DNA from: Streptomyces sp. NBC_00457
GTDB taxonomy: Bacteria > Actinomycetota > Actinomycetes > Streptomycetales > Streptomycetaceae
Assembly (NCBI RefSeq): GCF_036014015.1
Contig: NZ_CP107905.1
Location: forward strand, 10,540,001-10,604,000
Length of the DNA stretch: 64,000 nt
Reading direction: 5' to 3'
In this document: positions 1,366 through 25,156 of the stretch, piece after piece
Numbering within the stretch: position 1 is the first letter of the stretch
Layout of the letters: every line of letters starts with the position of its first letter
The notes under the pieces: generated by a model
Seen by the model: the letters and a program-made list of their open reading frames with translations, nothing else
Database searches by the model: none
Told to the model about the DNA's origin: nothing
Position numbers and translations under genes: made by a program

Positions 1366-1367
1366 GC

Positions 1368-8493: not shown

Positions 8494-10719
8494 GTGGACG
8501 GTACGCATGGAGGCGAACGCGCAGTCAGCGTCGGACGCACCTCAGGGCCGCCCGTGACGGCGGCCGGTCAGTATGCCCTGGACGATCCGGTATCGGCGCA
8601 CTTGGAGGTCTGCCTCGTCGGCGCAGGACCGCGGGGCCTTTCCGTACTGGAACGGCTCTGCGCGCAGGAACGCAAGTCGCCCCGCTGGGACACCGTCACC
8701 GTGCACGTCGTCGACCCGGATCCACCGGGTTCGGGACGGGTGTGGCGCCCTACGCAGTCCCGGCACCTGCTGATGAACACCGTGTCCTGCCAGGTCACGG
8801 TCTACACCGACGCCAGCGTCCGCATCGACGGCCCGCTGGACGAGGGGCCGAGCCTGTACGAGTGGGCCAAGGCCCTGGTCTCGCACACCCTGGAGGCCAC
8901 CCCGCAGGCCGGCTACGACGACGGCGTCCTTGCCGAGGCACGCCGGCTGAGCCCCGACACCTACCCCACCCGTGCCCTGTACGGCTGCTATCTGACCTGG
9001 GCGTTCCAGCAGGTCGTCGCGAACGCCGCCGCGCACGTGAGGGTGCGCACGCACCCGGTGCGCGCCGTCGCCCTCGAGGACGACGCCGCCCGCGGCGGGC
9101 GGGCGGGATGGCAGAGCGTCGTCCTCGAGGACGGCACCCGGCTGACCGGCCTGTCCGCGGTCGTCCTGGCCCAGGGCCACGTACCGGTGCAGCCCTCGGA
9201 CACCGAGCGGGAGCTGACCGAATACGCCGAAGCGAGCGGGCTGACCTACCTGGCCCCGTCCAACCCGGCCGACGCGGACCTGTCGGGCATCCGGCCCGGC
9301 GAGCCGGTGCTGCTGCGCGGACTCGGGCTCAACTTCTTCGACTACCTGGCCCTGTTCACCCACGGCCGGGGCGGCGTCTTCACCCGCACGGGCGGCCGGC
9401 TGGTCTACCGGCCCTCGGGCCGCGAGCCGCGCCTGTACGCGGGTTCGCGGCGCGGTGTGCCCTACCAGGCGCGCGGCGAGAACGAGAAGGGCGCCCACGG
9501 CCGCTACTACCCGCGGCTGCTGACCGCCGACTACATCAAGGCGCTGCGCGCCCGGACCCCCGACAGCGCGGCCATCGACTTCGCCGCCGACCTGTGGCCG
9601 CTCATCTCCAAGGAGGTGTGCGGTGTCTACTACGCGGCCCTGCTCGCGGCCCGCGGCGAACTGCCCGACCTCATCGACGACTTCACCGAGGACTACCTGG
9701 AGGCCGAACCGGGCCGGGAGGAGGACGCGCTCCTGGACGCGGCCGGGATCAAGGCCGCCGACCGCTGGGACTGGCAGCGCATCGCACGCCCCTACGGCAG
9801 CCGCGTCTTTAGTGACCAGGCCGCCTTCCGCGGCTGGCTGCGCGGCCATCTCGACGACGATGTCCGCCTGGCCCGCCAGGGCAACGTCAGCGGACCGGTC
9901 AAGGCCGCCCTCGACGTCCTGCGGGACCTGCGCAACGAGCTGCGGCTCGCCATCGACCACGCCGGCCTGACCGCCGCCTCCCACCGCGACGACCTCGACG
10001 GCTGGTACACACCGCTCAACGCCTATCTGTCCATCGGCCCCCCGGCCTTGCGCATCGAGGAGATGGCCGCGCTCATGGACGCCGGCATCCTCGACGTGAC
10101 CGGACCCGGCCTGCGCGTCACCGCCGACCCGCACGACCCGCTCGGCCCCTGCTTCACCGGGACGTCGAGCGAGATACCGGACGTGGCCGTGCGGGCCACC
10201 GTCCTCATCGAGGCCCGCCTGCCCGAGATCGACCTGCGGCGCACCGCGGACCCGCTGATGAGCGAGCTGCTGCGCACCGGGCAGTGCCGCCCGTACCGCA
10301 TCCCCGGCGCCGGCGCCGCGGGCGGCACGGACTACGAGACCGGTGGCCTGGCCGTGTCCGAGCGGCCCTACCACCTGATCGACGCCCGGGGCGTCCCGCA
10401 TCCGCGGCGCTTCGCCTACGGGGTGCCCACCGAGTCCGTGCACTGGGTGACCGCCGCGGGCATCAGGCCCGGCGTCGGCTCGGTCACCCTCGAGGACTCC
10501 GACGCCATCGCCGCGGCCGTCCTCGCCCTGCCCGGGCTTCCTGTCGTCTCCGAACAGCCACAACAGTCACAGCAGCCAGAGCAGCCACAACAGCCAGAGC
10601 AGCCAGAACAGGCAGAGCAGTCAGAACAGTCGGAGCAGCCAGAGCAGTTGGGCATCTCTCCTGCAGACCGTGCGGCCCTGGCCGCCATCGCGGCCCCGAG
10701 CGTGAAGGCAGGCGCATGA
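8494..10719 (+). CDS. creE: CreE-like FAD-dependent oxygenase (predicted L-aspartate to nitrosuccinate)
   Basis: A protein of 741 residues. An N-terminal FAD/NAD(P)-binding fold (LEVCLVGAGPRGLSVLERL, residues ~38-56) is followed by the rest of the FAD/NAD(P)-binding protein family seen in CreE of cremeomycin synthesis. CreE oxidises the amino group of aspartate to a nitro/nitroso level. The GTG at 8494 was chosen because GGAAGGAGG sits 5 bp upstream; an earlier in-frame GTG at 8473 lacks a site. The coding sequence overlaps the CreD-like gene by 4 bp, the standard arrangement of the nitrous-acid pathway. Residues ~686-722 are a low-complexity Gln/Glu/Pro/Ser repeat (SEQPQQ type), an unusual tail. 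Family assignment is from pattern memory; the context strengthens it. Confidence 0.76.
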   Translation: MDGTHGGERAVSVGRTSGPPVTAAGQYALDDPVSAHLEVCLVGAGPRGLSVLERLCAQERKSPRWDTVTVHVVDPDPPGSGRVWRPTQSRHLLMNTVSCQVTVYTDASVRIDGPLDEGPSLYEWAKALVSHTLEATPQAGYDDGVLAEARRLSPDTYPTRALYGCYLTWAFQQVVANAAAHVRVRTHPVRAVALEDDAARGGRAGWQSVVLEDGTRLTGLSAVVLAQGHVPVQPSDTERELTEYAEASGLTYLAPSNPADADLSGIRPGEPVLLRGLGLNFFDYLALFTHGRGGVFTRTGGRLVYRPSGREPRLYAGSRRGVPYQARGENEKGAHGRYYPRLLTADYIKALRARTPDSAAIDFAADLWPLISKEVCGVYYAALLAARGELPDLIDDFTEDYLEAEPGREEDALLDAAGIKAADRWDWQRIARPYGSRVFSDQAAFRGWLRGHLDDDVRLARQGNVSGPVKAALDVLRDLRNELRLAIDHAGLTAASHRDDLDGWYTPLNAYLSIGPPALRIEEMAALMDAGILDVTGPGLRVTADPHDPLGPCFTGTSSEIPDVAVRATVLIEARLPEIDLRRTADPLMSELLRTGQCRPYRIPGAGAAGGTDYETGGLAVSERPYHLIDARGVPHPRRFAYGVPTESVHWVTAAGIRPGVGSVTLEDSDAIAAAVLALPGLPVVSEQPQQSQQPEQPQQPEQPEQAEQSEQSEQPEQLGISPADRAALAAIAAPSVKAGA

Positions 10720-12155
10720 GCGTGGTGCACGCATCCGCGCGGACCGGAACGCTGTCCGCCCATCTGGACGCCGGGCTGCTCTCACCGGTGCGGGCGGGCA
10801 CCCCCGTCGAGGCGGCCGTGGGCGACAGCGCCTGGCTGCAGGCGATGCTCGACGCGGAGGCGGCCCTGGCCCGCGCCCAGGCCCGCTGCGGCACGGTGCC
10901 CGCCCACGCGGCCCGCGTCATCACGGCCGCCGCCCGCGCCGAGCTGCTGGACGTCCGCGAACTGGCGCTGGCCGCGCGGGAGACCGCGAACCCGGTGGTG
11001 GGCCTGGTCAAGGCGCTGACCGCGGTGGTCGCCGAGCGGTCCGAGCAGGCCGCCGAGTATGTGCACCGCGGCTCGACCAGCCAGGACGTCTTCGACACCG
11101 GGGCGATGCTGGTGGCCGCGCGGGCGCTGCGTCTGATCGTCGCGGACCTGCGGGCCGTGGCCGCCGCGCTGGCCGGCCTCGCGGCCGCGCACCGGGACAC
11201 CGTGATGGCGGGCCGCACCCTGGCCCTGCACGCCGTGCCCACCACCTTCGGCCTCAAGGCGGCCGGCTGGCACCGGCTGGTCCTGGACGCCGCCGAGCGC
11301 CTCGAACGCATCGCCCACGGCGGGCTACCGGTGGCGCTCGGCGGCGCGGCCGGAACCCTGGCCGGCTATCTGCAGTACGCGGGAGCGGACGCGGACCCCG
11401 CGGCCGTCCTCGACGACCTGGGCGCCGCCTTCGCCGACGAGACGGGCCTGGCCGCCCCCGTCCTGCCCTGGCACGCCCTGCGCACCCCCGTCGCCGACCT
11501 GGGGGCCGCACTCGCCCACACGGCCGGGGCTCTTGGCAAGATCGCCGCGGATGTGCTGGTGCTCACCCGTACCGAGGTCGGTGAGGTGGCCGAGCCCCAG
11601 GTCGCCGGACGGGGCGCCTCGTCGGCGATGCCGCACAAGCGCAACCCCGTGCTCGCGACCCTGATCCGCTCGGCCGGCCTGCAAGTGCCCGCCCTGGCCA
11701 CCGTACTGATGCAGTGTCTGCCCACCGAGGACGAGCGCTCGGCCGGGATGTGGCACGCCGAGTGGCAGCCGCTGCGCGAGGCCCTGCGGCTGACCGGCGG
11801 CGCCGCGCACACGGCCGTCGAACTCGCCCGGGGGCTCACCGTCCACCCGCAGCGGATGCGCGCCAACCTCGCGGCGACCGGCGGGCAGCTCGTCTCCGAG
11901 CGCGTCTCGGCCGTCCTGGCGCCGCGCCTGGGCAAGACGGCCGCCAGGGAACTGCTCACCCAGGCCTCGATGCTCGCCTCCCGCACCGGCCTGCCGCTGG
12001 CCGACGTGCTGGCCGGCCTGCCGCAGCTGGCCGGAGTGCTCAGCCGCGAGGAGGCGGCCGCCCTGCTCGACCCGGCCGGCTACACGGGCGCCGCCGGCCC
12101 GCTGGTGGACCGGGCACTGGGCGCACCGGGCACGGCCCGGCCCCCGGCGCCCTGA
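10716..12155 (+). CDS. creD: CreD-like nitrosuccinate lyase (fumarase/aspartase superfamily)
   Basis: A protein of 479 residues of the fumarase/adenylosuccinate lyase fold. The conserved HRGSTSQD (117-124) and the signature loop GASSAMPHKRNP (300-311), with the catalytic Ser region, are intact. Database annotation of such proteins is usually 3-carboxy-cis,cis-muconate cycloisomerase. Next to a CreE-like gene, with ATGA overlap, the likely reaction is beta-elimination of nitrosuccinate to nitrous acid and fumarate. No other protocatechuate-degradation gene is nearby, which argues against the muconate role. A very strong terminator hairpin follows. Confidence 0.8.
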   Translation: MSVVHASARTGTLSAHLDAGLLSPVRAGTPVEAAVGDSAWLQAMLDAEAALARAQARCGTVPAHAARVITAAARAELLDVRELALAARETANPVVGLVKALTAVVAERSEQAAEYVHRGSTSQDVFDTGAMLVAARALRLIVADLRAVAAALAGLAAAHRDTVMAGRTLALHAVPTTFGLKAAGWHRLVLDAAERLERIAHGGLPVALGGAAGTLAGYLQYAGADADPAAVLDDLGAAFADETGLAAPVLPWHALRTPVADLGAALAHTAGALGKIAADVLVLTRTEVGEVAEPQVAGRGASSAMPHKRNPVLATLIRSAGLQVPALATVLMQCLPTEDERSAGMWHAEWQPLREALRLTGGAAHTAVELARGLTVHPQRMRANLAATGGQLVSERVSAVLAPRLGKTAARELLTQASMLASRTGLPLADVLAGLPQLAGVLSREEAAALLDPAGYTGAAGPLVDRALGAPGTARPPAP

Positions 12156-12170
12156 CCGGCGGCCGGCCCG

Positions 12171-12220
12171 CAGGCGTCCGGCGTGCACCGGGCCGCCGGC
12201 CGGTGCACGCCGAACGCCTG
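12171..12220 (+). terminator. Strong bidirectional-looking hairpin after the CreE/CreD pair
   Basis: Arms of 21 bp beginning CAGGCGT and ending ACGCCTG, with a single mismatch, enclose an 8-base GC loop. It lies 15 bp after the CreD-like stop codon. The rest of the 12156-12528 gap is very GC-rich and holds no supported gene. Confidence 0.8.
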
Positions 12221-12528
12221 GGGGCGGGCGGGCTGTGAGGGCCCGCGGGCCGGCTGTGCCGAGGGCACCGGCCGCTGCCCACGGCGGCCGGCGTCGTACG
12301 CACCGGCCCGGCCGGTGCCTGCCCGACGTGGAGCACGGGCGGGCGCGGGCCCGTCCGCCCTGGTCGCCCGCCCCAAAGGCGCCCGCCCGTGCGGCACCGT
12401 GCCCGGCGCCCCCGCTCGAGTCCTCCTCGCGGCCGCCTCGAAGGCCGCTCGAGGCGCCGCCGAACCCGGCCGCGCGGACCGCCCCGCGCCGCATGATGCA
12501 ACCACAACACACAGGGGAGGCGGCCGAG

Positions 12529-14034
12529 TTGAAACGGGACGCACGTGTGGTCGGCGGGGGCGGCGGCCACGGCCACGCCGTGGTGATCGGCTCGAGCCTG
12601 GCGGGGCTCACCGCGGCGCGGGCCCTGGCCAACTTCATGGACCACGTCACCGTGATCGAGCGCGACTGGCTGCCCACCGGAGCGGGCCGCCGCCGCGGCG
12701 TACCCCAGGCACGGCACACCCACAGCCTCATGACCGCCGCCCACCAGGGCCTGGAGGAACTGTTCCCCGGCATCCGCGGTGACCTCACCCGCGCCGGAGC
12801 CGTCCACGTCCGCATCCCGAAGGACATGCTGCTGCTCGGCCCGGCCGGCTGGCTGCCCCGCTTCGACGCGGGCCTGTCGATGTACAGCGCCGGCCGCGAC
12901 CTCATCGACGCGGCCATACGCGCCCGGCTGCGCGCCGACCCCAGGGTGACCTTCCTGCCGCAGCACGAGGTCGTCGCCCTGCAGGGCGGCCGCCAGGACA
13001 CCGTCACCGGCGTCTGGGCACGCGGCCGGGACCGCACGGCCCCGGGCGGCTGGACGCCCCGGCGCCTGCTGCCGGCCGAGTTCGTGGTGGACGCCTCCGG
13101 ACAAGGCTCCCGCGCCCCGCAATGGCTCGCCGAGCTCGGCTACGACCCGCCCGCCGAATCCGTGGCCGGCGCCGGGACCGCGTACGCCACCACCCTGTTC
13201 GCGGCGCCGGTCGGCCACGTCGCCGACTTCACCAGCCTGGTGCTCATGGCCGCGCCCGGCGACCCGCGCCAGGGCATGCTGCACCCCGTCGAAGGCGGCC
13301 GCTGGTCGGTGTCGCTGAGCACCGGCGACGGCACACCGCCGCCCACCAGCCACGCGGCACTGGTGCGCGCCGCAGGCAACCTGCGCCACCCGCTGCTGCG
13401 CGACCTCATCGAGGCGGCCACCCCACTCGGCCCCGTCTACGGCTGCAGCCGCACCGGGCAGCGCTGGCGCCACTACGAGAAGCTGCGCCGCTGGCCCGAC
13501 CAGTTCCTCGTGGTCGGCGACGCCCTCGCCACCCTGGACCCGGCCCACGGCCACGGCATGACCCTCGCCGTGCAGGGCGCTCTCGTCCTGGACCACCTGC
13601 TCGCCGCGCACGGCACCGCGGTCGGCATCAGCCACCGCCTGCGCCGGGCCCTGGCCCACCGCCTCGCCCCCGCCTGGCAGGCGAGCGCCCGCACCCTGGG
13701 CCCGGCGGACACCGGCCAGGACCCGCCGGCCACCCTGCGCGCCCGGCTCGGCCGGCGCTACGCGTCCCGGCTCGCGGCCGCCGCGACCACCGACCCGCAC
13801 GCGGCGGCCCTGCTGCTCCACCTGCAGCAGAGCCTCGCCCCGCCCGCCGCCCTGCGCCCGCGCGCGCTGCGGGCGGCGCTGCGCCCCCGCCGTGACACGC
13901 CGCCCGCGACGCCGTCCAGCGTCACCCACGGCCCCCAGGCACGCCCGCGCCGTCCCGCCACCCCGGCCACGCCCGCCCCCGCCGCCGGCCGGCCGGCAGC
14001 GGCCGTGAGCACGCCGCGCGTACGCCGCTTTTGA
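12529..14034 (+). CDS. FAD-dependent monooxygenase/oxidoreductase
   Basis: A protein of about 500 residues. The Rossmann FAD motif VVIGSSLAGLTAARAL is near the N-terminus. The second FAD motif, GDALATLDPAHGHGMTLA (about residue 325), matches the flavin-binding GD motif of aromatic hydroxylase/geranylgeranyl-reductase-like enzymes. The C-terminal ~60 residues are Pro/Ala/Arg-rich and probably disordered. I chose TTG 12529 because AGGGGAGG sits 8 bp upstream; two in-frame ATGs (12493, 12496) lack a site. A plausible role is hydroxylation or oxidative rearrangement of the naphthoquinone or its prenyl chain. The exact reaction cannot be read from sequence. Confidence 0.78.
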   Translation: MKRDARVVGGGGGHGHAVVIGSSLAGLTAARALANFMDHVTVIERDWLPTGAGRRRGVPQARHTHSLMTAAHQGLEELFPGIRGDLTRAGAVHVRIPKDMLLLGPAGWLPRFDAGLSMYSAGRDLIDAAIRARLRADPRVTFLPQHEVVALQGGRQDTVTGVWARGRDRTAPGGWTPRRLLPAEFVVDASGQGSRAPQWLAELGYDPPAESVAGAGTAYATTLFAAPVGHVADFTSLVLMAAPGDPRQGMLHPVEGGRWSVSLSTGDGTPPPTSHAALVRAAGNLRHPLLRDLIEAATPLGPVYGCSRTGQRWRHYEKLRRWPDQFLVVGDALATLDPAHGHGMTLAVQGALVLDHLLAAHGTAVGISHRLRRALAHRLAPAWQASARTLGPADTGQDPPATLRARLGRRYASRLAAAATTDPHAAALLLHLQQSLAPPAALRPRALRAALRPRRDTPPATPSSVTHGPQARPRRPATPATPAPAAGRPAAAVSTPRVRRF

Positions 14035-14230
14035 GCCTGTGGCGCGTCGGCGCCGTCGCGGGCCGATAAAGCACGGTCATACGCTCGCCGCATGGCAGAG
14101 GTGAGGCAACTGTCCGACGCAGCAGCTCACTTGAGCGGCCACGAGCGATCGCCCACCACCCAACGGGCTGAAAAACCGGGCCTGTTGCCTACCGGGAAGG
14201 CCGACTCGTCCTCGCACGTCCCACAACTCG

Positions 14231-14415
14231 CTCAAGAATCACTTGAGTTGCCACTTGAGTATGACTTGAGCGCGGTTGTTCGGCCCGGTCGCCCGTGGAT
14301 AGCGTTTCACCCGCTCCAGGGCACGGGCCCGCTGACGCCGCGCAGGCCGCCCCCGCCCCCGGCCGTTCACCGGCCGGACGGGGTGTGCCTGTGACGGCCG
14401 AGCGGCGGGGGGAGG
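14231..14415 (+). promoter_or_regulatory. Promoter region of the cytochrome b gene with SARP-like heptamer repeats
   Basis: ACTTGAG occurs at 14241, 14253 and 14264, one helical turn apart (12 and 11 bp). An inverted CTCAAG lies at 14231, and a related palindrome, GCTCA-CT-TGAGC, at 14125-14136. A possible -35 TTGTTC and -10 TAGCGT with an 18-bp spacer follow. Tandem heptamers with an 11-bp period are the known footprint of SARP activators. No SARP gene is in the window. The remaining 14035-14425 sequence has no supported gene. Confidence 0.6.
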
Positions 14416-14425
14416 GCGCGCGGGT

Positions 14426-16183
14426 ATGAGCACGACCGAAAGGGCGCCGCACACGGGGCGCACCACACCGCCGGCGGGCGAGCGCATCGCCGACTGGACG
14501 GACTCGCGGCTCGGGATCTACAACTTCCGGTTCCTGATCCGCAAGGTCTTTCCCGACCACTGGTCGTTCATGTTCGGCGAGATAGCGCTCTACAGCTTCA
14601 TCGTCCTGCTTCTCACCGGTACCTGGCTCACCATGTTCTTCGACCCGAGCATGACCGAGACCGTCTACCACGGGTCACACGAAGCGCTGCACGGCATCCC
14701 GATGTCCCAGGCCTACGCCTCCACCCTGCGCATCAGCTTCGACGTGCGCGGCGGCCTGTTCATCCGCCAGCTGCACCACTGGTCGGCGCTGGTCATGATC
14801 GGTGCGCTGTGCATCCACACGCTGCGGCACTTCCTGACCGGATCGTTCCGCAGGCCGCGCGAGGCCAACTGGCTGATCGGCTTCACGCTGCTCGTGCTGG
14901 TCACCCTGGAGGGCTTCGTCGGGTACTCGCTCCCCGACGACCTGCTCTCGGGCACCGGTCTGCGCATCGCCGAAGGCGTCACGCTCGCCATCCCGGTGGT
15001 CGGGACCTATCTGACGCTGTTCCTGTTCGGCGGCGAATACCCGGGACACGACATCATTCCCCGGTTCTACAGCTTCCACATCCTGCTGATCCCGGGCATC
15101 ATCGTCGCCCTGGTCACCGTCCACCTGATCTACGTCTTCTACCACAAGCACACCCAGTTCCGGGGACCGGGCCGCACCGAGAAGAACGTCGTCGGCCAGC
15201 CCCTGATGCCGGTGTACGCGGGCAAGGCCGGCGGGTTCTTCTTCCTCGTGTTCGGCGTGCTCGCGCTGATGGCCGGCATCGCCCAGATCAACCCCGTGTG
15301 GACCTACGGCCCCTACCGCGCCGACCAGATCTCCCAGGGCTCCCAGCCCGACTGGTACATGGGCTTCCTCGAGGGCGCCCTGCGGGCCATGCCCGCCTGG
15401 GAGTTCGTCGTCCCGGGCGGCTACACCGTCAACATGGGCGTCCTGCTGCCGGCCGTCATCCTGCCCACCGTCATGATGGCGGTGATCGCCCTGTGGCCGT
15501 TCCTGGAAGCCTGGGTCACCGGCGACAGACGCGAACACCACCTCCTGGACCGCCCCCGCGACCACCCCACCCGCACCGCGTTCGGCTGCGCCTTCGTCGC
15601 CCTCTACCTGGTGCTGTTCTTCGGCGGCGCCAACGACGTCCTGGCCGAACGCTTCCATCTGTCCCTGAACCAGATCACCTGGGCGGTGCGGATCGGATTC
15701 TTCGTCGTCCCGGCACTGACCTACGTCCTCACCCGGCGGATCTGCCTCGGCCTGCAACGCCGCGACCGCGACAAGCTCCTGCACGGCCGCGAGACCGGAA
15801 AGATCAGAAGGCTGCCGCACGGCGAGTTCGTCGAGGTCCACGCGCCCCTCGACCGCCCCCAGGCCTACACCCTGCTGTCCAAGGAGGTGCGCGAGACAGT
15901 GCCGGCCCCCGCACCGGAGAACGGCGGCGTGCCCAACCCGCAGGCCCGCAAGGAGATGCTGCGCCACCGGCTCAGCCGCTGGCTGTACGGCAACCAGATC
16001 CCGCAGCCGACACCGCAGGACATGCGGCACGCCCTGGAACACTCCGGCCACTCGCCGGGCGGACATGGCCCGTCCAACGGACACGGCTCGTCCAACGGAC
16101 ACGGCCCGTCGGCAGGCGGGCCCCTGGACACCGGCAGGCAGGCCGCCGGCGAGGAGCGGGAGCCGGACCAGGAACCGCACTGA
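14426..16183 (+). CDS. qcrB: Cytochrome bc1 complex cytochrome b subunit (QcrB), probable extra copy
   Basis: A protein of 585 residues closely resembling actinobacterial QcrB. It has cytoplasmic N-terminal residues, about eight or nine membrane segments, haem-ligand His pairs (HHWSALVMIGALCIHTLRHF and FHILLIPGIIVALVTVHLIY regions) and the QPDWYMGFLEGALRAMPAWE segment around the quinol-oxidation site. The C-terminal ~60 residues are low-complexity Gly/His/Ser. No qcrA or qcrC accompanies it, so it is not the housekeeping operon. Inside a naphthoquinone cluster, an extra quinol-binding subunit is a reasonable self-resistance target (inference). It has its own promoter with SARP-like repeats. 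A GGGGGGAGGG site precedes the ATG. Confidence 0.93.
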   Translation: MSTTERAPHTGRTTPPAGERIADWTDSRLGIYNFRFLIRKVFPDHWSFMFGEIALYSFIVLLLTGTWLTMFFDPSMTETVYHGSHEALHGIPMSQAYASTLRISFDVRGGLFIRQLHHWSALVMIGALCIHTLRHFLTGSFRRPREANWLIGFTLLVLVTLEGFVGYSLPDDLLSGTGLRIAEGVTLAIPVVGTYLTLFLFGGEYPGHDIIPRFYSFHILLIPGIIVALVTVHLIYVFYHKHTQFRGPGRTEKNVVGQPLMPVYAGKAGGFFFLVFGVLALMAGIAQINPVWTYGPYRADQISQGSQPDWYMGFLEGALRAMPAWEFVVPGGYTVNMGVLLPAVILPTVMMAVIALWPFLEAWVTGDRREHHLLDRPRDHPTRTAFGCAFVALYLVLFFGGANDVLAERFHLSLNQITWAVRIGFFVVPALTYVLTRRICLGLQRRDRDKLLHGRETGKIRRLPHGEFVEVHAPLDRPQAYTLLSKEVRETVPAPAPENGGVPNPQARKEMLRHRLSRWLYGNQIPQPTPQDMRHALEHSGHSPGGHGPSNGHGSSNGHGPSAGGPLDTGRQAAGEEREPDQEPH

Positions 16184-16327
16184 CCCGGTCTGCGACGCAC
16201 AGGACCGGGCCGGATACGGCGGCGCGGGTGATCAGGGGACGGTCACCCGCGCCGCCGTCGTTTCACCGCCGGCCCCGCCGGTTGCCCTCGTCCCGGCGGC
16301 CCATGCCCCAGCATCCACGGAGGCCCG

Positions 16328-16684
16328 ATGAGCCCCACCCCATGGCGCCGGGACGGACCCCGCGCCGCATCCATCACCCGGGCACGCACCGGCCTGACGC
16401 AGGATCTGCGCGTGCGCCAGCGCCGCTACATCGTGGCGATGCTGGTGCGCACCGCCTGTGTGGTCCTGATGGCCCTCACCTGGAACCGCTGGCCCGCCGT
16501 CGGCGTCTGCGCCCTCGTCGGCGGGGTCGTCATCCCCTACGTCGCCGTGGTGGCCGCCCAGGCCGGGTGGCGCCAGCAGCGCGGCGTGAGGCCCGCGCTG
16601 ACGCCGGCCGGCGACGAGCCCGCCACCCGCGTCGTCCTGGAACCCACCCTGATCCTGCCACCGGAACGCAACACGGCGGGCTGA
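16328..16684 (+). CDS. DUF3099-like small membrane protein
   Basis: A protein of 118 residues with a basic N-terminus (ITRARTGLTQDLRVRQRRY) and two hydrophobic segments (about 35-55 and 58-78), as in Streptomyces DUF3099 proteins. Function is unknown. It follows the cytochrome b gene by 144 bp in the same direction and may be co-transcribed. The next 500 bp to the MFS gene hold no supported gene, only a strong palindrome. Confidence 0.7.
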   Translation: MSPTPWRRDGPRAASITRARTGLTQDLRVRQRRYIVAMLVRTACVVLMALTWNRWPAVGVCALVGGVVIPYVAVVAAQAGWRQQRGVRPALTPAGDEPATRVVLEPTLILPPERNTAG

Positions 16685-17129
16685 CCGGGCACACGCGTGG
16701 GCGCGCGCCGGGGCGCCGGAAGGGGCCGGGGGCTGGGGCGTCGGGGGTGGTGCCTAGGGCTTGCGGCGGCGGATCCGGTGCCGTGCGACCCTCCACCGCA
16801 CCCGGCTGCCACCGCGGCGCCCCGTGCGGGGCCGGCCGCACCGTCCCGCCCAAGCTGCGGGCATGCGTGCCGCCTGGGGCGGCACGGGTGGGCGCAGGCG
16901 GCACCCCGTCAGCGCCGGGCTGCGCGACCCACCCCCGGGGCAGCCACCCCACGCACAGCTGCACCCCGCCCAGCGCAGCCAACGCCCGCCGGCCTCGGCG
17001 ACGCCGTCGTCCAGGCGCACCCGCCGTCCCGCACTGCCGCCCTGCGTCGCCGGGGCCGCGGCCGGCGGACACGACAGGGCGCCGGGCCGTGCGGCATCCG
17101 CGGTCACCGTGCCCGGTCCCGTCACAAGG

Positions 17130-17163
17130 CCGCCTGCCGGAGCACCCGTGCTCCGGCAGGCGG
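17130..17163. terminator. Perfect hairpin between convergent units
   Basis: A 16-bp arm CCGCCTGCCGGAGCAC, a two-base loop and its exact complement. It stands between the plus-strand DUF3099 gene and the minus-strand MFS gene, so it can stop transcription from both sides. Confidence 0.8.
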
Positions 17164-17189
17164 TCAAGGTCACGCCCGCGCAGCGGCGG

Positions 17190-18506
17190 TCAGTGCGGTG
17201 CCTTCACCGCGGCCCGGTTCTGCCAGGGGCGGCACACCGCCAGGAAGCAGACCAACGCGGCCAGTGCGCTGCCCAGTTGGACCAAGGCCATCGGCACCGC
17301 CGTCTGCTTGCCCGCGATCCCCACGAGTGAGGAGGCGATCGCTCCCATGAGGAAGCACGACGTGCCGACCAGCGCGGAGGCGGACCCCGCGGCGTGCGGG
17401 GTGCGCATCAGCGCGAGCGCGTTGGTGTTGGGCAGGATCAGGCCCAGCGAGGAGATCATGACGAAGAGGCAGGCGGCGATCGGCACCGCCCCCGCGGTGC
17501 CGAAGGCGCCCTGCGTCACCAGCAGCAGCGCCGCCCCGGCGAGGGTGAGCAGCGCCAGTCCGCACCCGAGCGTCTTGTCCAGGCGGACCCGGCCGACGAG
17601 GATCTTGCCGTTGATCTGGCCGACGATCATCAGGCCGAGCGAGTTGAGGCCGAAGAGCAGCGAGAAGGTCTGCGGGGACGCCCCGTAGATGTCCTGGATC
17701 ACGAACGGTGAGGCGGCGATGTAGGAGAACAGCGCTCCGTAGGCGAAGCCGTTGGTCAGCAGGTACCCGGTGAAGATCCGGTCGGCGCACAGCCCGTGCA
17801 TGATCCACAGGGCCGCGCGTACCCCGCCGCTCTGCCGCCGCTCCGCGGGCAGGGTCTCCGGCAGCCGGCGCCAGACGAGCAGGGTGAGCGCGATGCCGAT
17901 CACGGCGAGGACGAGGAAGATGCCGCGCCAGTTGGTGACGTGCAGGACCTGTCCGCCGATGACGGGCGCGACGATCGGGGCGATGCTGGATATCAGCAGC
18001 AGCGTGGAGAAGAACCGGGCCATGGCCAGGCCGTCGTAGAGGTCGCGTACGACGGCCCGGGCGATGACGATCCCGGCCGCCCCCGCCAGGCCCTGCAGCA
18101 GCCTGAAGGCGATGAGCACCTCGGCGGTGGGCGCGAAGGCGCACATCGTGGCGGCGACGATATAGACGAGCAGTCCGGCCAGCAAAGGCCTGCGCCGTCC
18201 CCACCTGTCGCTCATCGGGCCGACCACCAGCTGCCCGAGCGCCATGCCGGCCAGGCACGCGGTGAGGGTCAGCTGGACGGTCGTGGCGGTCGAGCCCAGG
18301 GTGCGGGTGACCTCCGGGAGGGCCGGGAGGTACATGTCCATCGACATCGGCGGCACCGCGGCGAGGGCGCCGAGGATGAACGTGACGAGGAGACCGGTCC
18401 GGCGCAGCGCCGGGCCCCCGCCGGCCGTATCGCGTCCCGTCGCCGGGGACGGCGCCCCGGGGGATCGCTTACGTCCGGCGGCGGCTTCCTCGGCTTGCTG
18501 AGACAT
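17190..18506 (-). CDS. Bcr/CflA-type MFS drug efflux transporter
   Basis: A protein of 438 residues with 12 predicted membrane segments. Motifs typical of the Bcr/CflA branch are the TM1 segment PPMSMDMYLPALPEV and the loop 2-3 motif GPMSDRWGRRRPLLAG. An Arg-containing TM4 region (FRLLQGLAGAAGIVIARAVVRDLYDG) is also present. It should act as a proton-driven exporter. Location between the cytochrome b and PKS genes suggests export of the meroterpenoid or an intermediate. Transcription is divergent from the PKS operon, and the 18507-18600 segment would hold its promoter. Confidence 0.92.
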   Translation of the reverse strand: MSQQAEEAAAGRKRSPGAPSPATGRDTAGGGPALRRTGLLVTFILGALAAVPPMSMDMYLPALPEVTRTLGSTATTVQLTLTACLAGMALGQLVVGPMSDRWGRRRPLLAGLLVYIVAATMCAFAPTAEVLIAFRLLQGLAGAAGIVIARAVVRDLYDGLAMARFFSTLLLISSIAPIVAPVIGGQVLHVTNWRGIFLVLAVIGIALTLLVWRRLPETLPAERRQSGGVRAALWIMHGLCADRIFTGYLLTNGFAYGALFSYIAASPFVIQDIYGASPQTFSLLFGLNSLGLMIVGQINGKILVGRVRLDKTLGCGLALLTLAGAALLLVTQGAFGTAGAVPIAACLFVMISSLGLILPNTNALALMRTPHAAGSASALVGTSCFLMGAIASSLVGIAGKQTAVPMALVQLGSALAALVCFLAVCRPWQNRAAVKAPH

Positions 18507-18600
18507 GCGCCCTCCGCGTCCAGTCGTTGCATGGCTAACGGCGATGCTCTCAACCGGGCGCTACAGAACCGGCAGGGCACCGGTGGCGCAGGAGAAATCG

Positions 18601-18860
18601 ACTTGTGCGCCACTTGAGCCCAACTCGGCGTGACCCACGTCACTTTGGGGCGGTCTTGGCGCGGAGAGTGCGCCCGTGTCACTATTCCAGCACGCCCTCC
18701 CTGCCCAAAAACTGTTCTGGGGCAGTGGATTGAGCATCGTAGTCACCGTTTCGTACGGGTGAGACCGACGTCCGTGCCAGGTGGCGGCACAGGTTCCCTC
18801 TCGCATCACATCCTCAACGCGCCGTGGCGCTTTGCGCCCTGCGGCTTTGCCTCAGTGCGC
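18601..18860 (+). promoter_or_regulatory. PKS operon promoter and leader, copy B of the shared module with SARP-like heptamers
   Basis: Heptamers ACTTGTG (18601), ACTTGAG (18612) and ACTCGGC (18623) are exactly 11 bp apart. They abut GTGACCCACGTCAC (18630-18643). Then follow TTGGCG (18656-18661), an 18-bp spacer and CACTAT (18680-18685). A TGCCC...GGGCA hairpin (18702-18724) and GTGGATTGAG come next. Leader similarity to the copy at 33745-33960 continues for about 120 bp, including GAGACCGA, GGCACAG and a small GGCGC-TTT-GCGCC hairpin. The start would be near 18692, leaving a ~375-nt leader. Confidence 0.74.
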
Positions 18861-19067
18861 AAGCGCCGCCGGCGCTGATCCGGCATGCCCTGTGCCGCGC
18901 CTGTTGCCCAAGTGATCGCGGTGGTCGGCACGTTCTGTGCGGTGCGGCCTGCCCGCGGCCGCCCCGCACCCGCCTCCGCCGTAACGACCTGACGAGAACC
19001 GCTTCGGAAGCTGTGCGCGGATTCTGCACGCACAGAAGGCAGACTCTCGAGAAATGAGACCCCAGAT

Positions 19068-20135
19068 ATGCCAAGGCTATGCAAGCCCGCGGTGAGCGCG
19101 CCGGAACACGTCATCACGATGGAAGAGACGCTGGAGTTCGCCCAACAAGCTCATGCAGGAAAGCCGCAGCTTCCTCTGGCGCTCCGGCTGATCCGGAACA
19201 CGGGGGTGCTGAAGCGGCATATCGTGCAGCCCATCGAGCAGACACTGCGCCACCCGGGGCTGACCGAACGCAACCGCATCTACGAGGCCGAATCCAAGAA
19301 GTGGTGCCCCCCGGTCATCGAACAGGCCCTTGAGAACGCCGATGTGGCGGCCCGTGACATCGACGCCATCATCTACGTGTCGTGCACCGGGTTCCTGATG
19401 CCGTCGCTGACCGCATGGCTGATCAACAGGATGGGACTGCGCTACGACACCCGGCAGATACCCATCGCCCAGCTGGGGTGCGCGGCAGGCGGCGCGGCGG
19501 TCAACCGCGCCCACGACTTCTGCGCGGCCCACCCGGGAAGCAACGTCCTGATCGTCAGTTGCGAGCTGTGCTCGCTGTGCTACCAGCCCGACGCCGACGA
19601 CATCGGCTCGCTGCTGTCCGACGGGCTGTTCGGCGACGCGGTCGCGGCCGCCGTGGTGCGCGGCAGCGGCGGCGTCGGCATCGAACTGGAGCGCAACGCC
19701 TCCTACCTCATTCCCAACACCGAGGACTGGATCTCCTACGCGGTGCGCGACACCGGCTTCCACTTCCAGCTGGACCGGCGGGTGCCCGGCACGATGGAGC
19801 CGCTGGCCCCGGTGCTGCGGGAGTTCGCCAAGGACCACAGCTGGGACGCCGGCAACCTCGACTTCTACATCGTCCACGCCGGCGGCCCGCGGATCCTGGA
19901 CGACCTCGCCAAGTTCCTCGAGGTCGACCGCACGGTGTTCCGTCACAGCTGGTCGACCCTGACCGAATACGGCAACATCGCCAGCGCGGTCGTGTTCGAC
20001 GCGGCACGCAGGCTGTTCGAAGAGGACCCCCCGGCCCCCGACGCCACCGGTCTGATCGCGGGTTTCGGTCCCGGCATCACCGCCGAGATGGCGCTGGGCC
20101 GCTGGAGCGTCGACGCACCGGGCGAATTGGACTGA
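19068..20135 (+). CDS. rppA: 1,3,6,8-Tetrahydroxynaphthalene synthase (type III PKS)
   Basis: A protein of 355 residues that condenses five malonyl-CoA units to tetrahydroxynaphthalene. The catalytic triad Cys138 (AQLGCAAGG), His270 (IVHAGGP) and Asn303 (EYGNIASAV) is in the positions described for Streptomyces THNS. Cys106 in YVSCTGFLMPSL is also kept. It starts a tight operon: 7 bp to the cupin gene, which in turn overlaps the aminotransferase gene. Its promoter copy (B) also drives the mevalonate operon, linking aromatic core and isoprenoid supply. It is the core-building gene of the cluster. Confidence 0.97.
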   Translation: MPRLCKPAVSAPEHVITMEETLEFAQQAHAGKPQLPLALRLIRNTGVLKRHIVQPIEQTLRHPGLTERNRIYEAESKKWCPPVIEQALENADVAARDIDAIIYVSCTGFLMPSLTAWLINRMGLRYDTRQIPIAQLGCAAGGAAVNRAHDFCAAHPGSNVLIVSCELCSLCYQPDADDIGSLLSDGLFGDAVAAAVVRGSGGVGIELERNASYLIPNTEDWISYAVRDTGFHFQLDRRVPGTMEPLAPVLREFAKDHSWDAGNLDFYIVHAGGPRILDDLAKFLEVDRTVFRHSWSTLTEYGNIASAVVFDAARRLFEEDPPAPDATGLIAGFGPGITAEMALGRWSVDAPGELD

Positions 20136-20142
20136 GCCCTGT

Positions 20143-20709
20143 ATGACTGGTCTCATTCTCCCGCCCGGTCAGGGGCGAAAGCTGATCACCAAGGCGCAGG
20201 AAGTGACCTTCAAGGCCACCGAGGCGCACGGCTCCTCCATATCGATCTTCGAGGTGGTGGTGCCGCCCGGGTTCGATGTCGGGGCCCATGTCCACAGCGA
20301 TGCGCAGGAGTTCTTCTACGTCCTTGAGGGGGAGCTGCAACTGCTGGCCTTCGAGCCCATCACGCGCACGCAGGAGAGCTGGCACGAGTGGGAGTCGCCC
20401 GAGGGGGACCGGGTCGTCCGGGCCACCGAGGGGGCCAGCATGTTCGTTCCCCCGGGAACGCCGCACGCGTTCAGGAACGCCTCGGACCAGCCGGCGCGCA
20501 TGCTGTTCCAGTGCTTCCCCTCACCCATTCACGAGCTCTACTTCGACGAGATCGCCGAGATCTGGTCGGCCGGCGGGCCGCCGGACGCAGAGGCCATCGA
20601 GGAGATGCGCCGGCGCTATGACGTCAGTCAGATCACGCCGCTGCGCTTCGACCCGCCCCCTCTTCTCGATTCCCCGTCGGCAACGGAGCGCGGAGCGCAA
20701 CGGAGATGA
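20143..20709 (+). CDS. MomA-like cupin quinone-forming oxygenase
   Basis: A protein of 188 residues with one double-stranded beta-helix domain. Cupin motif 1 is HVHSDAQEFFYVLEGE, with His49, His51 and Glu56 as likely metal ligands. Motif 2 is FVPPGTPHAF, with His108. Genes of this kind beside THN synthases encode the anchor-type monooxygenase that turns tetrahydroxynaphthalene into flaviolin. That is the most likely reaction here. The C-terminal ~30 residues are Pro/Ser-rich. The stop codon overlaps the aminotransferase start by 4 bp. Confidence 0.87.
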   Translation: MTGLILPPGQGRKLITKAQEVTFKATEAHGSSISIFEVVVPPGFDVGAHVHSDAQEFFYVLEGELQLLAFEPITRTQESWHEWESPEGDRVVRATEGASMFVPPGTPHAFRNASDQPARMLFQCFPSPIHELYFDEIAEIWSAGGPPDAEAIEEMRRRYDVSQITPLRFDPPPLLDSPSATERGAQRR

Positions 20710-21863
20710 GCGACATGGACAAGATTTCCCTGGTGCACGCAAGCCTGGGGGAGCAGGAACTGGCCGCCGTCGCCGAGGTGTTCGCCTCCGGCTGGCCGGC
20801 CGGCCAGGGCCCCAAGGGCAAGGCTCTCGAGGCCCGGCTGAAGGAACGTTACGGTGCCGGTGACGCGGTCGCGGTCAGCAACTGCGGCGCCGCACTGCAC
20901 CTGGCGATGCTCGCGTTCGGCGTCAAGCCGGGCGACGAAGTGATCGTCGCCGACTACACGTTCCCGGCACCCGCCCATGCGGTGCGGTACGTGGGCGCCA
21001 CGCCGGTCTTCGCCGACGTACGCGCCGACACCGGCACCGTGGACCCCGAGGCGGTCGCGGATCTGGTCTCGGCGCGCACGGTGGGCATCATCGCCGTCGA
21101 CACGGTGGGACTGCCCGCGGACTACACGCAGCTGCAGGCGATCGCCGACCGCCACGGGCTGTTCCTCGTCGAGGACGCCGCCTGCGCGGTGGGCGCCACC
21201 TACCAGGGGCGTGAGGCGGGCGCGCTGGCCGAGGTGGCCTGCCTGTCCTTCCACGGACGCAAGGGAGCCACCAGCGGGGAGGGCGGCGCCCTGATCGCCA
21301 CCGACCCGGCCATCGGGGCGCACACGCGGCAGCTCTCCTCCTTCGGCATCGGCAGCATCTACGACCAGGCGCAGGTCATCGGCCTGCCGATCCCTCAGTT
21401 CACCGAGATCGGCTACAACTTCAAGCTGTCCGACATCGCCGCGGCGATCCTTGAGGTGCAGCTCGGCCGGATCGAGGAACTGCTGGAGCGCCGGCGCGCC
21501 GTCGCCGCGCGCTACGCCGAACTCTTCGCCGGCGAGGAACTCCTGACGGTGCCGCACGTACCGGCGGACCGTACCCACGCCTGGCAGTCCTACCTGGTGA
21601 CGCTGGATCCGGGCGTGGACCGCGCGGCGGTCGCCACCGACCTGCGGGCCCAGGGAATCGGCTGCCTGCACGGCACCTGGGCCAGCCACCTGCAGCCCGC
21701 GTTCGGGGCCCAGCAGGTGTGCCCGGTCTCGGCGGATCTCTTCCGGCGCAATCTCGGCATACCCATGCACGCCGAGCTGACCATGGACCAGGTCGAACGG
21801 GTCGTGGAGGTGCTGCGTACCGCGGTGCGCACCCACGCACGGCCCGTCGGCCGCGCCGCCTAG
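20706..21863 (+). CDS. DegT/DnrJ/EryC1-type PLP aminotransferase (predicted flaviolin/mompain amination)
   Basis: A protein of 385 residues. PLP Lys186 lies in SFHGRKGATSGEGG and the pyridine-binding Asp157 in LVEDAACAVGA. The fold-type I DegT/StrS layout is complete. No sugar-nucleotide genes are present, so a sugar substrate is unlikely. In furaquinocin, naphterpin and napyradiomycin clusters a homologue aminates the naphthoquinone to an 8-aminoflaviolin-type intermediate. That family-level knowledge is the basis for the role given. The gene is coupled to the cupin gene by a 4-bp overlap, and a small hairpin begins right after its stop. Confidence 0.88.
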   Translation: MSDMDKISLVHASLGEQELAAVAEVFASGWPAGQGPKGKALEARLKERYGAGDAVAVSNCGAALHLAMLAFGVKPGDEVIVADYTFPAPAHAVRYVGATPVFADVRADTGTVDPEAVADLVSARTVGIIAVDTVGLPADYTQLQAIADRHGLFLVEDAACAVGATYQGREAGALAEVACLSFHGRKGATSGEGGALIATDPAIGAHTRQLSSFGIGSIYDQAQVIGLPIPQFTEIGYNFKLSDIAAAILEVQLGRIEELLERRRAVAARYAELFAGEELLTVPHVPADRTHAWQSYLVTLDPGVDRAAVATDLRAQGIGCLHGTWASHLQPAFGAQQVCPVSADLFRRNLGIPMHAELTMDQVERVVEVLRTAVRTHARPVGRAA

Positions 21864-21882
21864 GCCCCTGCGGCACAGGGGC
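21864..21882 (+). terminator. Small hairpin immediately after the aminotransferase gene
   Basis: GCCCCTG-CGGCA-CAGGGGC, perfect 7-bp arms, starting one base after the stop codon. It is short and may only attenuate read-through into the ligase-like gene at 21993. Confidence 0.45.
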
Positions 21883-21992
21883 GGGCCGTTGTTCCAGGCA
21901 GTTTTGACGAGCCGTCCGTACGCCCCCCTTGCCCCGCATCGAGCACCGTGCGCCGTTGACCTCGCGACGTGCCCCCGAAGGAGACAGTCCCC

Positions 21993-23579
21993 ATGAAGGG
22001 CTCCACAGCCTACAAATCGATACAGAAGCGCGGTCTGCACATCGGCCTGCTGCCGGAGATGGCCGCGGCCGTGAACCCCTCGACACCGATCAGCCTGGAC
22101 CACGACCTGGACGTCCTGCCCGAGGCGGGGCGGCGCCTGACGGTGGCTCAGTACGCCGAGCACGTGGACGACCTGGCGGGCCGCCTGTGGGCGGCCGGTG
22201 TCCGGCCCGACGAGCGCGTCGTGCTCTACAAGAGGGCCAATGCCGACCACTGGATGCTCGCCGCCGCGGTGTCCCGCATCGGCGCGGTCGTGGTGAACCT
22301 GTCGCCGGCCCTGGACGCCGCGACCGTCGCCGTCCTGCTCGAGCGGGTCGGCCGGCCGACCCTGCTCACCGACGCGGCCAAGCTCGACGTCCTCGCCGAG
22401 GTGCCGCTGGAGGAGATCACCCAGCGGGTGATCTCCTCCAGCGGCCACCGGCCGGGGGCCCTGCCGCTCGCCGAGCTCGCCGGGGCGCCGCGGGTCAGGC
22501 CGGTGGTCCGGCCGATCGACGAGGCCGCCGTGATCACCCACACCTCCGGCACCACCGGGATTCCCAAGCTCGTGGTGCACACGCCCCGCACCCAGGGCAT
22601 CCGCCTGGTACCGCAGTGGCGGCTGCTGTCCCTGATGCGGAAGAAGGAGACCGTCGCGATCCACGTGCCCTTCGTGCACTCGCGGATGGTCGCGGCGATG
22701 TCCCTGGCCCTGCTCAAGCAGTACCCGGTCCTGCTCATGCGGGAGTCGGACCCCGCCGACGTCGCCGAGCAGCTCATCGAGCACCGGCCGGCCTTCATCG
22801 AGGCGCTGCCCAACTCGCTGATGGAGTGGGAGGGGCTGGCCGAGGACCCGCGAGCGCCGTTCGGGTCGGTGAAGGTCTTCAGCAGCACCTTCGACGCGAT
22901 CCACCCCGGGACGATGAGCCGGCTGCTGAAGGCCTCCGACCGGCGCGGGGCGCTGTTCTTCCAGATCTACGGGCAGAGCGAGGTCGGTCCGGCCGTCGGC
23001 CGCGCCTACTTCCGCCACTCCGCCCACAAGGCCAACGGGCGCTGCGTCGGCTGGGCCATGCCGCACGGCGCCGCGAGGATCCGCGTGGTGAGCCGGGACG
23101 GCAGGGCGCCGTCCGAGCAGAGCCCCGGCTTCATCGAGGTCGCCTGGGACGGCATCGCCAAGACCTACTTCGCCGAGCAGGACCGCTACGACGCCAACCG
23201 CAACGGCCAGTGGTGGCGCACCGGCGACGTCGGCTACCGCACCCGGTTCGGCTGTCTGCACATGCTCGACCGGGAGGTCGACATGATCCCCGGGGTGCGC
23301 AGCTCCCTGGAGATCGAGGACGTGGTGCTGGGCGAGCTGAGCGAACTGAGCGAGCTGGTCGTGGTGCAGGGCCCGGGCGGCGAGGCGGTCCCGGTGATCT
23401 GCACCGTCGACGACCAGCCGCTGGACCGGGGCCGCTGGCGCGCGGCCGTCGCCGGTTTCCCCCAGCTGGCCGACCCCGTCCAGATCCCGCAGGCCGAACT
23501 GCCGCGGACCGCCACCTTGAAGGTGCAGCGGCTCGCCCTGGCCCGCCGGCTCGAACAGGAGCGGGAGCGGCGGGCGTGA
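21993..23579 (+). CDS. AMP-forming acyl-CoA ligase-like enzyme, candidate ATP-dependent diazotase
   Basis: A protein of 528 residues of the ANL superfamily. The phosphate loop THTSGTTGIPKLVV (~182-195), the A5 motif YGQSEVGPAV and the A7/A8 motifs RTGDVGYRT and LDREVDMIPG are intact. The C-terminal PRTATLKVQR keeps Lys510, but the preceding Gly of the usual GK pair is Leu. No carrier protein or free-acid substrate gene is nearby. CreM of cremeomycin shows that this fold can activate nitrite and diazotise an aromatic amine. With CreE/CreD homologues and an aminotransferase in the same cluster, that is the favoured role (inference). ATG 21993 follows GAAGGAG; a GTG 24 bp upstream is the alternative start. 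Confidence 0.8.
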   Translation: MKGSTAYKSIQKRGLHIGLLPEMAAAVNPSTPISLDHDLDVLPEAGRRLTVAQYAEHVDDLAGRLWAAGVRPDERVVLYKRANADHWMLAAAVSRIGAVVVNLSPALDAATVAVLLERVGRPTLLTDAAKLDVLAEVPLEEITQRVISSSGHRPGALPLAELAGAPRVRPVVRPIDEAAVITHTSGTTGIPKLVVHTPRTQGIRLVPQWRLLSLMRKKETVAIHVPFVHSRMVAAMSLALLKQYPVLLMRESDPADVAEQLIEHRPAFIEALPNSLMEWEGLAEDPRAPFGSVKVFSSTFDAIHPGTMSRLLKASDRRGALFFQIYGQSEVGPAVGRAYFRHSAHKANGRCVGWAMPHGAARIRVVSRDGRAPSEQSPGFIEVAWDGIAKTYFAEQDRYDANRNGQWWRTGDVGYRTRFGCLHMLDREVDMIPGVRSSLEIEDVVLGELSELSELVVVQGPGGEAVPVICTVDDQPLDRGRWRAAVAGFPQLADPVQIPQAELPRTATLKVQRLALARRLEQERERRA

Positions 23580-23783
23580 CCCGCCACGCAGCCACCTGCC
23601 GGTCCGAGGCGGCGTAGGCGGACACCCAAGGACGCCGCCGGATTCTGCTGCCGGGCCGGCCTCGGGACCGCCGGCGTGCTGCTGAGCGGTGTTCCCAGGC
23701 CGGCCATCCGGCCCGGCTGCCGCTGCCATGGGGGAGGGAGGGCCCGGTGCAACGACGGTGTGCAAAGGGCACGGAACCGGACC

Positions 23784-23805
23784 CGCGCGGGTGCGCACCC
23801 GCGCG
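23784..23805. promoter_or_regulatory. Perfect 22-bp palindrome in the gap before the polyprenyl synthase gene
   Basis: CGCGCGGGTGC followed directly by its complement, with no loop. It lies within the 468-bp gene-free gap 23580-24047. Such loop-less symmetry suits a dimeric regulator's operator better than a terminator. The gap also holds a longer imperfect repeat (GAGCCCGG...CCGGGCTC, about 23938-23983) that may terminate the upstream operon. No gene was supported in the gap. Confidence 0.4.
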
Positions 23806-24047
23806 ACCCGTGCGCCGACCCGGCCGGCCGCGGCGGCGTCGCGGACACGGCGCAGCCGGCCGGCCGGTGCGCCACTGCCGGCTCGCTGCCGATCGTTGCT
23901 CACCCCGCTGAAGCCGGCGTGAGCCGGGCCGCGGTGCAGAGCCCGGGGCCTGCCCGGCCGGCACGTCCTGCCCGGCCGGGCTCACTCATGCGCCGCACTC
24001 CGCACTCCGCCTCACGTGCTCATTCCTCCTGCCCAAGGAGATATTCA

Positions 24048-25118: not shown

Positions 25119-25156
25119 GCCTGCACCAGACGCCGAGATCGACGCTTGGAGGAAGA

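Follow-up and report, generated by a model that had tools for sequence, protein, structure and literature searches.

A predicted tetrahydroxynaphthalene meroterpenoid cluster of Streptomyces sp. NBC_00457 with a probable nitrite supply, a candidate CreM-type diazotase, and a cluster-specific QcrB

Introduction

Furaquinocin biosynthesis, among the closest described counterparts of the system considered here, follows a cryptic route in which an amino group is installed, diazotized, and lost again (Noguchi 2022 JACS, cited by PMC9323291; Noguchi 2025 Chem Sci, cited by both PMC12670698 and PMC12814520). As described there, the route uses a 1,3,6,8-tetrahydroxynaphthalene (THN) synthase (THNS), an oxidation, an aminotransferase (AT), a diazo-forming enzyme, and a reductive deamination to 1,2,4,5,7-pentahydroxynaphthalene. 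In the published order, THN is oxidized to mompain before transamination (PMC12670698), and flaviolin is more likely a shunt product (PMC12814520). We analyzed a 64,000-nucleotide stretch (the window), comprising bases 10,540,001 to 10,604,000 of the 10.80-Mb, one-contig genome of Streptomyces sp. NBC_00457, which carries CreE- and CreD-type genes predicted to supply nitrite together with genes for a THNS, a cupin, a DegT-family AT, and an ANL-superfamily enzyme that is a diazotase candidate. Its likeness to the furaquinocin (fur) system is one of described route.

Three further systems resemble the window in part. Locus L020 of S. aculeolatus DSM 41644 (G and L numbers are our labels for genomes and loci), which we took as the napyradiomycin/azamerone (nap) cluster from species and gene content, encodes a THNS, cupin, AT, and ANL enzyme 91%, 81%, 82%, and ∼83 to 84% identical to those of the window and shares mevalonate, vanadium-dependent haloperoxidase (VHPO), and DoxX genes with it. 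It differs in having no CreE/CreD, monooxygenase, or QcrB gene in the examined 33.4 kb of its 35.8-kb contig, and the sole S. aculeolatus CreD above the family cut-off lies on another contig. For NapB4, from the napyradiomycin cluster, 43% identity to CreM, a proven diazotase, is reported (PMC11705231). The avenalumic and p-coumaric acid (ava/cma) systems share with the pathway predicted here CreE/CreD-derived nitrite, an ANL diazotase, and loss of N2, but the window ANL enzyme is only ∼25% identical to theirs, no AvaA7 match was found in the window, and a THNS takes the place of the ava polyketide system. Cremeomycin biosynthesis has in common the nitrite pathway and, putatively, a CreM-like ANL enzyme, whereas the aromatic amine of the window would come from THN and transamination.

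Results

A probable nitrite supply and a candidate diazotase

Cluster content was read from Pfam and NCBIfam scans of selected open reading frames (ORFs) of the window (Table 1). Together with Protein Data Bank (PDB) matches, these scans bore out the gene set, coordinates, and family calls that an earlier note, made from the sequence alone, had given for this DNA; absent from its list were four genes between CreD and THNS, encoding a monooxygenase-like protein, QcrB, a DUF3099 protein, and a Bcr/CflA exporter. The window probably carries a THN meroterpenoid cluster, with a prenylated and probably halogenated product predicted. The THNS, cupin, AT, and ANL genes are contiguous at positions 19068 to 23579, and the only PDB match of the THNS at E ≤ 1e-40 was 1u0m, the S. 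coelicolor THN synthase.

The CreE gene begins at a GTG codon behind GGAAGGAGG, and its stop codon is overlapped by the ATG of CreD (overlap, 4 bases); codon-position GC and homology indicated that both frames are coding. CreD passed the curated nitrosuccinate lyase model NF052556 and carries an SSAMPHKRNP loop identical to that of the solved CreD 5xny. CreE matched no NCBIfam family, and its only PDB match at E ≤ 0.001 was 8cp2, in two stretches (residues 37 to 127 and 152 to 681), whose deposited name is "FAD-binding protein." We gave it the CreE label because of this match, the NAD_binding_9 domain, and its adjacency to CreD. The two are probably enzymes of the aspartate-nitrosuccinate (ANS) nitrous acid pathway and are predicted to form nitrite from aspartate, which agrees with the assignment in the earlier note. 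The repetitive Q/P/E-rich tail of CreE (window positions 10500 to 10719) lies beyond the part that matches 8cp2. Elsewhere in the same genome, a further CreD-like gene (G000:C1:1848038-1849318, L129) fell short of the cut-off at 532.5 bits, and CreE was not matched anywhere within the surrounding 19 kb.

For the ANL gene, the ORF call starts at 21969, and the ATG at 21993, the start used previously, has the better ribosome-binding site. The ATP-site motifs of the ANL fold, namely TSGTTG, Glu338 (in YGQSEVG), and Lys518 (numbered from 21969), were invariant in 14 of 14 aligned sequences. An AlphaFold2 model built from 14 close sequences had a mean pLDDT of 53.8, too poor for a fold search, and was not used. 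In a tree of 38 rows, which did not include CreM, Aha11, or Pzm18, a split supported at 100/100 separated 29 rows, among them the window ANL enzyme, from 9 acyl-ligase-like rows; the phylogenetic check proposed in the earlier note thus placed the protein with diazotases and apart from acyl ligases. The 29-row side consists of a 22-row clade that contains the window enzyme (100/100) and a 7-row clade (100/99) made up of Tri17, three AvaA6-type rows, 8ztz, 9xb8, and one L150 row. Eleven of the 13 nonorthologous rows in the 22-row clade came from stretches with both CreD and CreE; the stretches of the nonorthologues L130 and L131 had neither. Some long branches are retained in the tree. This placement suggests that the ANL enzyme is probably a CreM-type, ATP-dependent diazotase, and we treat it as a candidate for that role.

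Recurrence and linkage of the module genes

We compared the module across 33 sources, consisting of the first 27 loci, five more genomes of the genus, and the window. The nearest relative by ANL sequence is Streptomyces sp. GESEQ-4 (99% in ANL), and 25 of 27 relatives are named Streptomyces. THNS was present in 32 sources, the cupin in 32, the AT in all 33, and the ANL gene in 32, with all four together in 31; source G020 consists of a contig of 8 kb, and no intact match to the ANL was obtained in G026. The THN cluster of G026 (L035) had no ANL match at E ≤ 1e-100, CreD was found only in pieces across that genome, and the locus may be a decayed copy. CreE and CreD both lay within the fetched stretch of 16 of the 33 sources.

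The distance between CreD and the ANL gene was scored over 26 genomes (the genome of L025 was left out and G026 was unscored). CreD was above the cut-off in 22 of these, and in 15 the two genes shared a contig at no more than 30 kb. In genome G100, AT and THNS flank CreE and CreD, all on the same strand, and an ANL gene with 66% identity follows further along (L149, L160). Across a set of 199 genus genomes, CreD exceeded the cut-off in 6 of the 8 with an ANL orthologue versus 46 of the 191 without one (Fisher p = 0.0045), and the association held at 5 of 7 when strain NBC_00457 itself was removed (p = 0.013). The coupling of CreD to the ANL gene is good, not absolute.

Proposed pathway

What we observed directly is which genes are present, the families to which they belong, and how they recur together; every reaction, and the order of reactions, we infer from the furaquinocin precedent. 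CreE and CreD would turn aspartate into nitrite, while THNS would make THN and the cupin would oxidize it, to mompain in the published scheme. The DegT-family AT would then provide 8-aminoflaviolin, which the ANL enzyme would diazotize with nitrite activated by ATP. The diazo group would most likely be lost as N2 on reduction, giving 1,2,4,5,7-pentahydroxynaphthalene, and the reduced naphthalene core would finally be prenylated and tailored. We consider this pathway as a whole, from cluster-borne nitrite to a prenylated and probably halogenated THN meroterpenoid, to be likely.

The earlier note had proposed that flaviolin is aminated, that the amine is diazotized, and that the diazo group is then lost or kept. 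That chemistry is probably right and fits the gene set, but it is not new, being published for furaquinocin and discussed for napyradiomycin and azamerone. Since in the published order mompain precedes transamination, flaviolin cannot be taken with confidence as the substrate that receives the amine.

Several observations weigh against the proposed pathway. The sampling was selective: all 33 sources were chosen for the similarity of their ANL, and the nearness of the ANL tree to CreD is partly one of choice because most comparison rows were drawn from CreD stretches. Some ANL enzymes from such stretches (AvaA1 type, L151, L155) are among the 9 ligase-like rows. The window enzyme failed the AvaA6 diazotase equivalog NF058622 (95.9 bits; cut-off, 975) and is only 24 to 26% identical to AvaA6-type rows and Tri17. 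Linkage is also incomplete. CreD and the ANL gene are on different contigs in 9 of the 26 scored genomes, S. aculeolatus included (in 3 of the 9, CreD is below the cut-off), and ∼372 kb apart in G023, which indicates that cluster-borne nitrite is not obligatory and may come from elsewhere in a genome. Three of the eight genomes with an ANL orthologue depart from the pattern: CreD scored 647 bits, just below the cut-off, in G076; no CreD match was found at E ≤ 1e-190 in G182; and in G131 a distance of 6.2 Mb separates CreD and the ANL gene. Strain NBC_00457 itself has other CreD genes, at 3.08 Mb (677.8 bits) and 1.85 Mb (532.5 bits).

The gene at 3.08 Mb belongs to an ava-type cluster (G000:C1:3079568-3091439, L128) with AvaA6 at 1000.8 bits (cut-off, 975) and AvaA7 at 532.8 bits (cut-off, 400), whose CreE and CreD are 56% and 62% identical to those of the window. 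With this cluster besides that of the window, the strain encodes two diazotization systems.

Fate of the diazo group and rival readings

The avenalumic acid pathway employs AvaA7 (PMC10777205). A tblastn search of the window and a set of THN loci returned no AvaA7-like match at E ≤ 1, and an epimerase-family protein at 55343 to 56377, considered as an AvaA7-like reductase, matched other families instead. Of the first 27 loci, 8 have a gene of the NADPH/FMN type upstream of the one for the ANL enzyme, and in some of these a DoxX_2 gene separates the two. One of these reductase-type genes, L024:9301-9921, exceeded the cut-offs of both models for WrbA, an NAD(P)H:quinone oxidoreductase (182.7 versus 141 and 174.2 versus 132.5 bits). 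Genes at least 70% identical to it occurred in 10 of the 33 sources, its own included, and in 9 of the 33 the gene sits between AT and ANL, on the opposite strand in G182. In clusters that carry one, the WrbA-type enzyme is a candidate for the step that removes N2 by reduction. This distribution, and the lack of a convincing copy in the window, ruled it out as a universal partner. DoxX was ruled out likewise, with the window type in 4 and the DoxX_2 type in 7 of the 33 sources. DoxX-family membrane proteins, such as that at L011:9455-9931, recur in THN clusters, in some directly 5′ of the ANL gene.

The window therefore offers neither an AvaA7-type nor a convincing WrbA-type reductase for N2 loss, and this counts in favor of the possibility that the diazo group is kept, yielding a diazo or pyridazine meroterpenoid like the diazo napyradiomycins and azamerone. 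The only WrbA-like matches in the window were two short ones (E = 0.32 and 0.76), and those in the whole genome were weak or partial (best E = 8.7e-10, over 59 residues). The window also has VHPO genes and a DoxX type (65 to 69% identity) in common with S. aculeolatus (G012), G009, and G131, and diazo napyradiomycins occur in MAR4 strains (PMC10897937). A reductase could act from elsewhere, however, or the step could be nonenzymatic, and in the published furaquinocin route the nitrogen is lost. We regard retention of the diazo group as unlikely.

Nitrite might instead serve nitration, nitrosation, or signaling, with the ANL enzyme acting as an acyl-coenzyme A (CoA) or acyl-AMP ligase on another substrate. 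The genomes with CreD and ANL on different contigs would suit such a use, and among NCBIfam models the ANL enzyme scored best against one for acyl-CoA ligases in general (147.5 bits). That model has a cut-off of 476 bits, however, the tree separates the enzyme from the ligase rows at full support, and the module recurs beside an aminotransferase, which makes this reading very unlikely. Least probable of all is that the amine is the end point, with 8-amino meroterpenoids of the flaviogeranin B type as products and the diazo genes idle: amino-bearing flaviogeranins are known (PMC7463872), but the ANL and CreD genes are full-length and stop-free in both copies in the strain's own genome and the CreE frame of the window is open.

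A cluster-specific QcrB

Between CreD and THNS, the window carries a complete gene for QcrB, the cytochrome b of the bcc complex. The operon QcrB of the strain, which stands beside cytochrome c and QcrA genes, is 60% identical to the cluster copy, and three further QcrB copies are present in the genome. The cluster thus contains a second, diverged copy of a housekeeping target. At a threshold of E ≤ 1e-240, cluster-type QcrB was found in 4 of the 199 genus genomes, all of them among the 8 with an ANL orthologue (Fisher p = 1.1e-6; 2.7e-5 with the strain's own genome removed). It was also found in 17 of the 33 sources, including 14 of the 16 with CreE and CreD in range; no QcrB of this type lay in range in G018 and G167, both of which have CreE and CreD, or in the S. 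aculeolatus cluster.

The residue after the PDWYMGF motif is leucine in 17 of 17 cluster copies (Leu315 in the window copy) and serine or alanine at the same column of the four other QcrB copies of the strain. This column aligns to T308 of M. smegmatis, which corresponds to T313 of M. tuberculosis once an offset of 5 residues, taken from chain 7e1v, is applied. A T313A change confers resistance to imidazopyridine inhibitors in M. bovis BCG (PMC3534098) and lowers the calculated binding of Q203 (PMC8616580).

Judged by gene content and alignment, the cluster QcrB is a candidate for self-resistance by target duplication. We further suggest, tentatively and with somewhat less than even confidence, that THN meroterpenoids made by the module may inhibit cytochrome bcc at the quinol site and that the leucine-bearing QcrB may be a dedicated resistant copy of the target. 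Against a role in self-resistance, many positions distinguish the cluster copies from the operon QcrB; two other QcrB copies of the strain likewise carry alanine, which is the residue associated with resistance; and the genome contains further QcrB paralogues. We found no report of QcrB in connection with meroterpenoids or with self-resistance in biosynthetic clusters in the literature searched, from whose coverage most subscription papers fall outside. The QcrB copy, which lies inside the interval treated by the earlier note, is a less expected lead, not found in that literature.

Chromosomal setting

The left chromosome end matches the window in inverted orientation, as part of two blocks of 51 and 42 kb (99.93 and 99.998% identity by BLAST); over their outermost 20 kb, the two chromosome ends are 99.985% identical. 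The terminal inverted repeat would be ∼290 kb long if the middle between the compared parts is also repeated. The ANL, CreD, and QcrB genes are each present twice in the genome through this repeat, and because the cluster is doubled, knockouts must remove both copies. In genome G094, the same three genes are likewise doubled near both chromosome ends.

Table 1. Coordinates (window positions) and supporting matches of the annotated features
Feature	Position	Strand	Evidence
Mevalonate pathway genes (HMG-CoA synthase and reductase, diphosphomevalonate decarboxylase, GHMP kinase)	196..6717	-	Pfam matches
CreE-type FAD monooxygenase (aspartate to nitrosuccinate, predicted), Q/P/E-rich C-terminal tail	8494..10719	+	PDB 8cp2, 673 bits; NAD_binding_9, 134 bits on ORF 8473-10719; overlaps CreD
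CreD-type nitrosuccinate lyase (nitrite release, predicted)	10716..12155	+	NF052556, 813.3 bits (cut-off 650); PDB 5xny, 589.9 bits
FAD-dependent monooxygenase-like protein, start uncertain	12550..14034	+	PF01494, 33.2 bits on ORF 12235-14034; recurs with CreD and QcrB
QcrB, cytochrome b of bc1/bcc complex, cluster-specific type; candidate self-resistance copy	14426..16183	+	NF050120, 745.5 bits (cut-off 500)
DUF3099 protein, recurrent neighbor of QcrB	16328..16684	+	PF11298, 65.9 bits
Bcr/CflA-type major facilitator superfamily exporter	17190..18506	-	TIGR00710, 327 bits (cut-off 200.9)
Type III polyketide synthase, THN synthase	19068..20135	+	PDB 1u0m, 557.7 bits; Pfam chalcone/stilbene synthase domains
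Cupin oxygenase (THN oxidation by analogy)	20143..20709	+	Cupin_2, 64 bits; in 32/33 sources
DegT/DnrJ/EryC1/StrS aminotransferase (8-aminoflaviolin by analogy)	20706..21863	+	PF01041, 321.6 bits
ANL-superfamily enzyme, CreM-like diazotase candidate	21993..23579	+	PF00501, 137.1 bits; tree placement; Glu338/Lys518 invariant
Polyprenyl diphosphate synthase	23676..25118	+	PF00348, 150.4 bits
ABBA aromatic prenyltransferase (domain from about 25175)	24887..26071	+	PF11468, 256.6 bits
Cytochrome P450	26085..27356	+	PF00067, 172.5 bits
ABBA aromatic prenyltransferase	27824..28747	+	PF11468, 151.4 bits
VHPO-like protein	29417..31171	+	PF22778, 249.8 bits
ABBA aromatic prenyltransferase	34261..35196	+	PF11468, 234.8 bits
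DoxX-family membrane protein	35369..35962	+	PF07681, 28.8 bits (cut-off 23.6); 65-69% identity to G009, G012, G131 DoxX
VHPO-like protein	37858..39555	+	PF22778, 247.4 bits

Discussion

Our analysis supports the view that the cryptic amination-diazotization module of furaquinocin and napyradiomycin biosynthesis is common in THN clusters, often with its own nitrite supply. Two leads, the WrbA-type reductase and the QcrB copy, merit tests. The first makes loss or retention of the diazo group a testable question, by comparison of WrbA-bearing with WrbA-lacking clusters. The second concerns a class of antibiotics for which PMC12814520 describes the modes of action as poorly understood. If QcrB does confer self-resistance, this class would gain a concrete respiratory target, the block of CreE, CreD, monooxygenase, QcrB, and DUF3099 genes would combine supply and immunity in one unit, and QcrB copies of this kind would serve as a genome-mining flag for bcc inhibitors.

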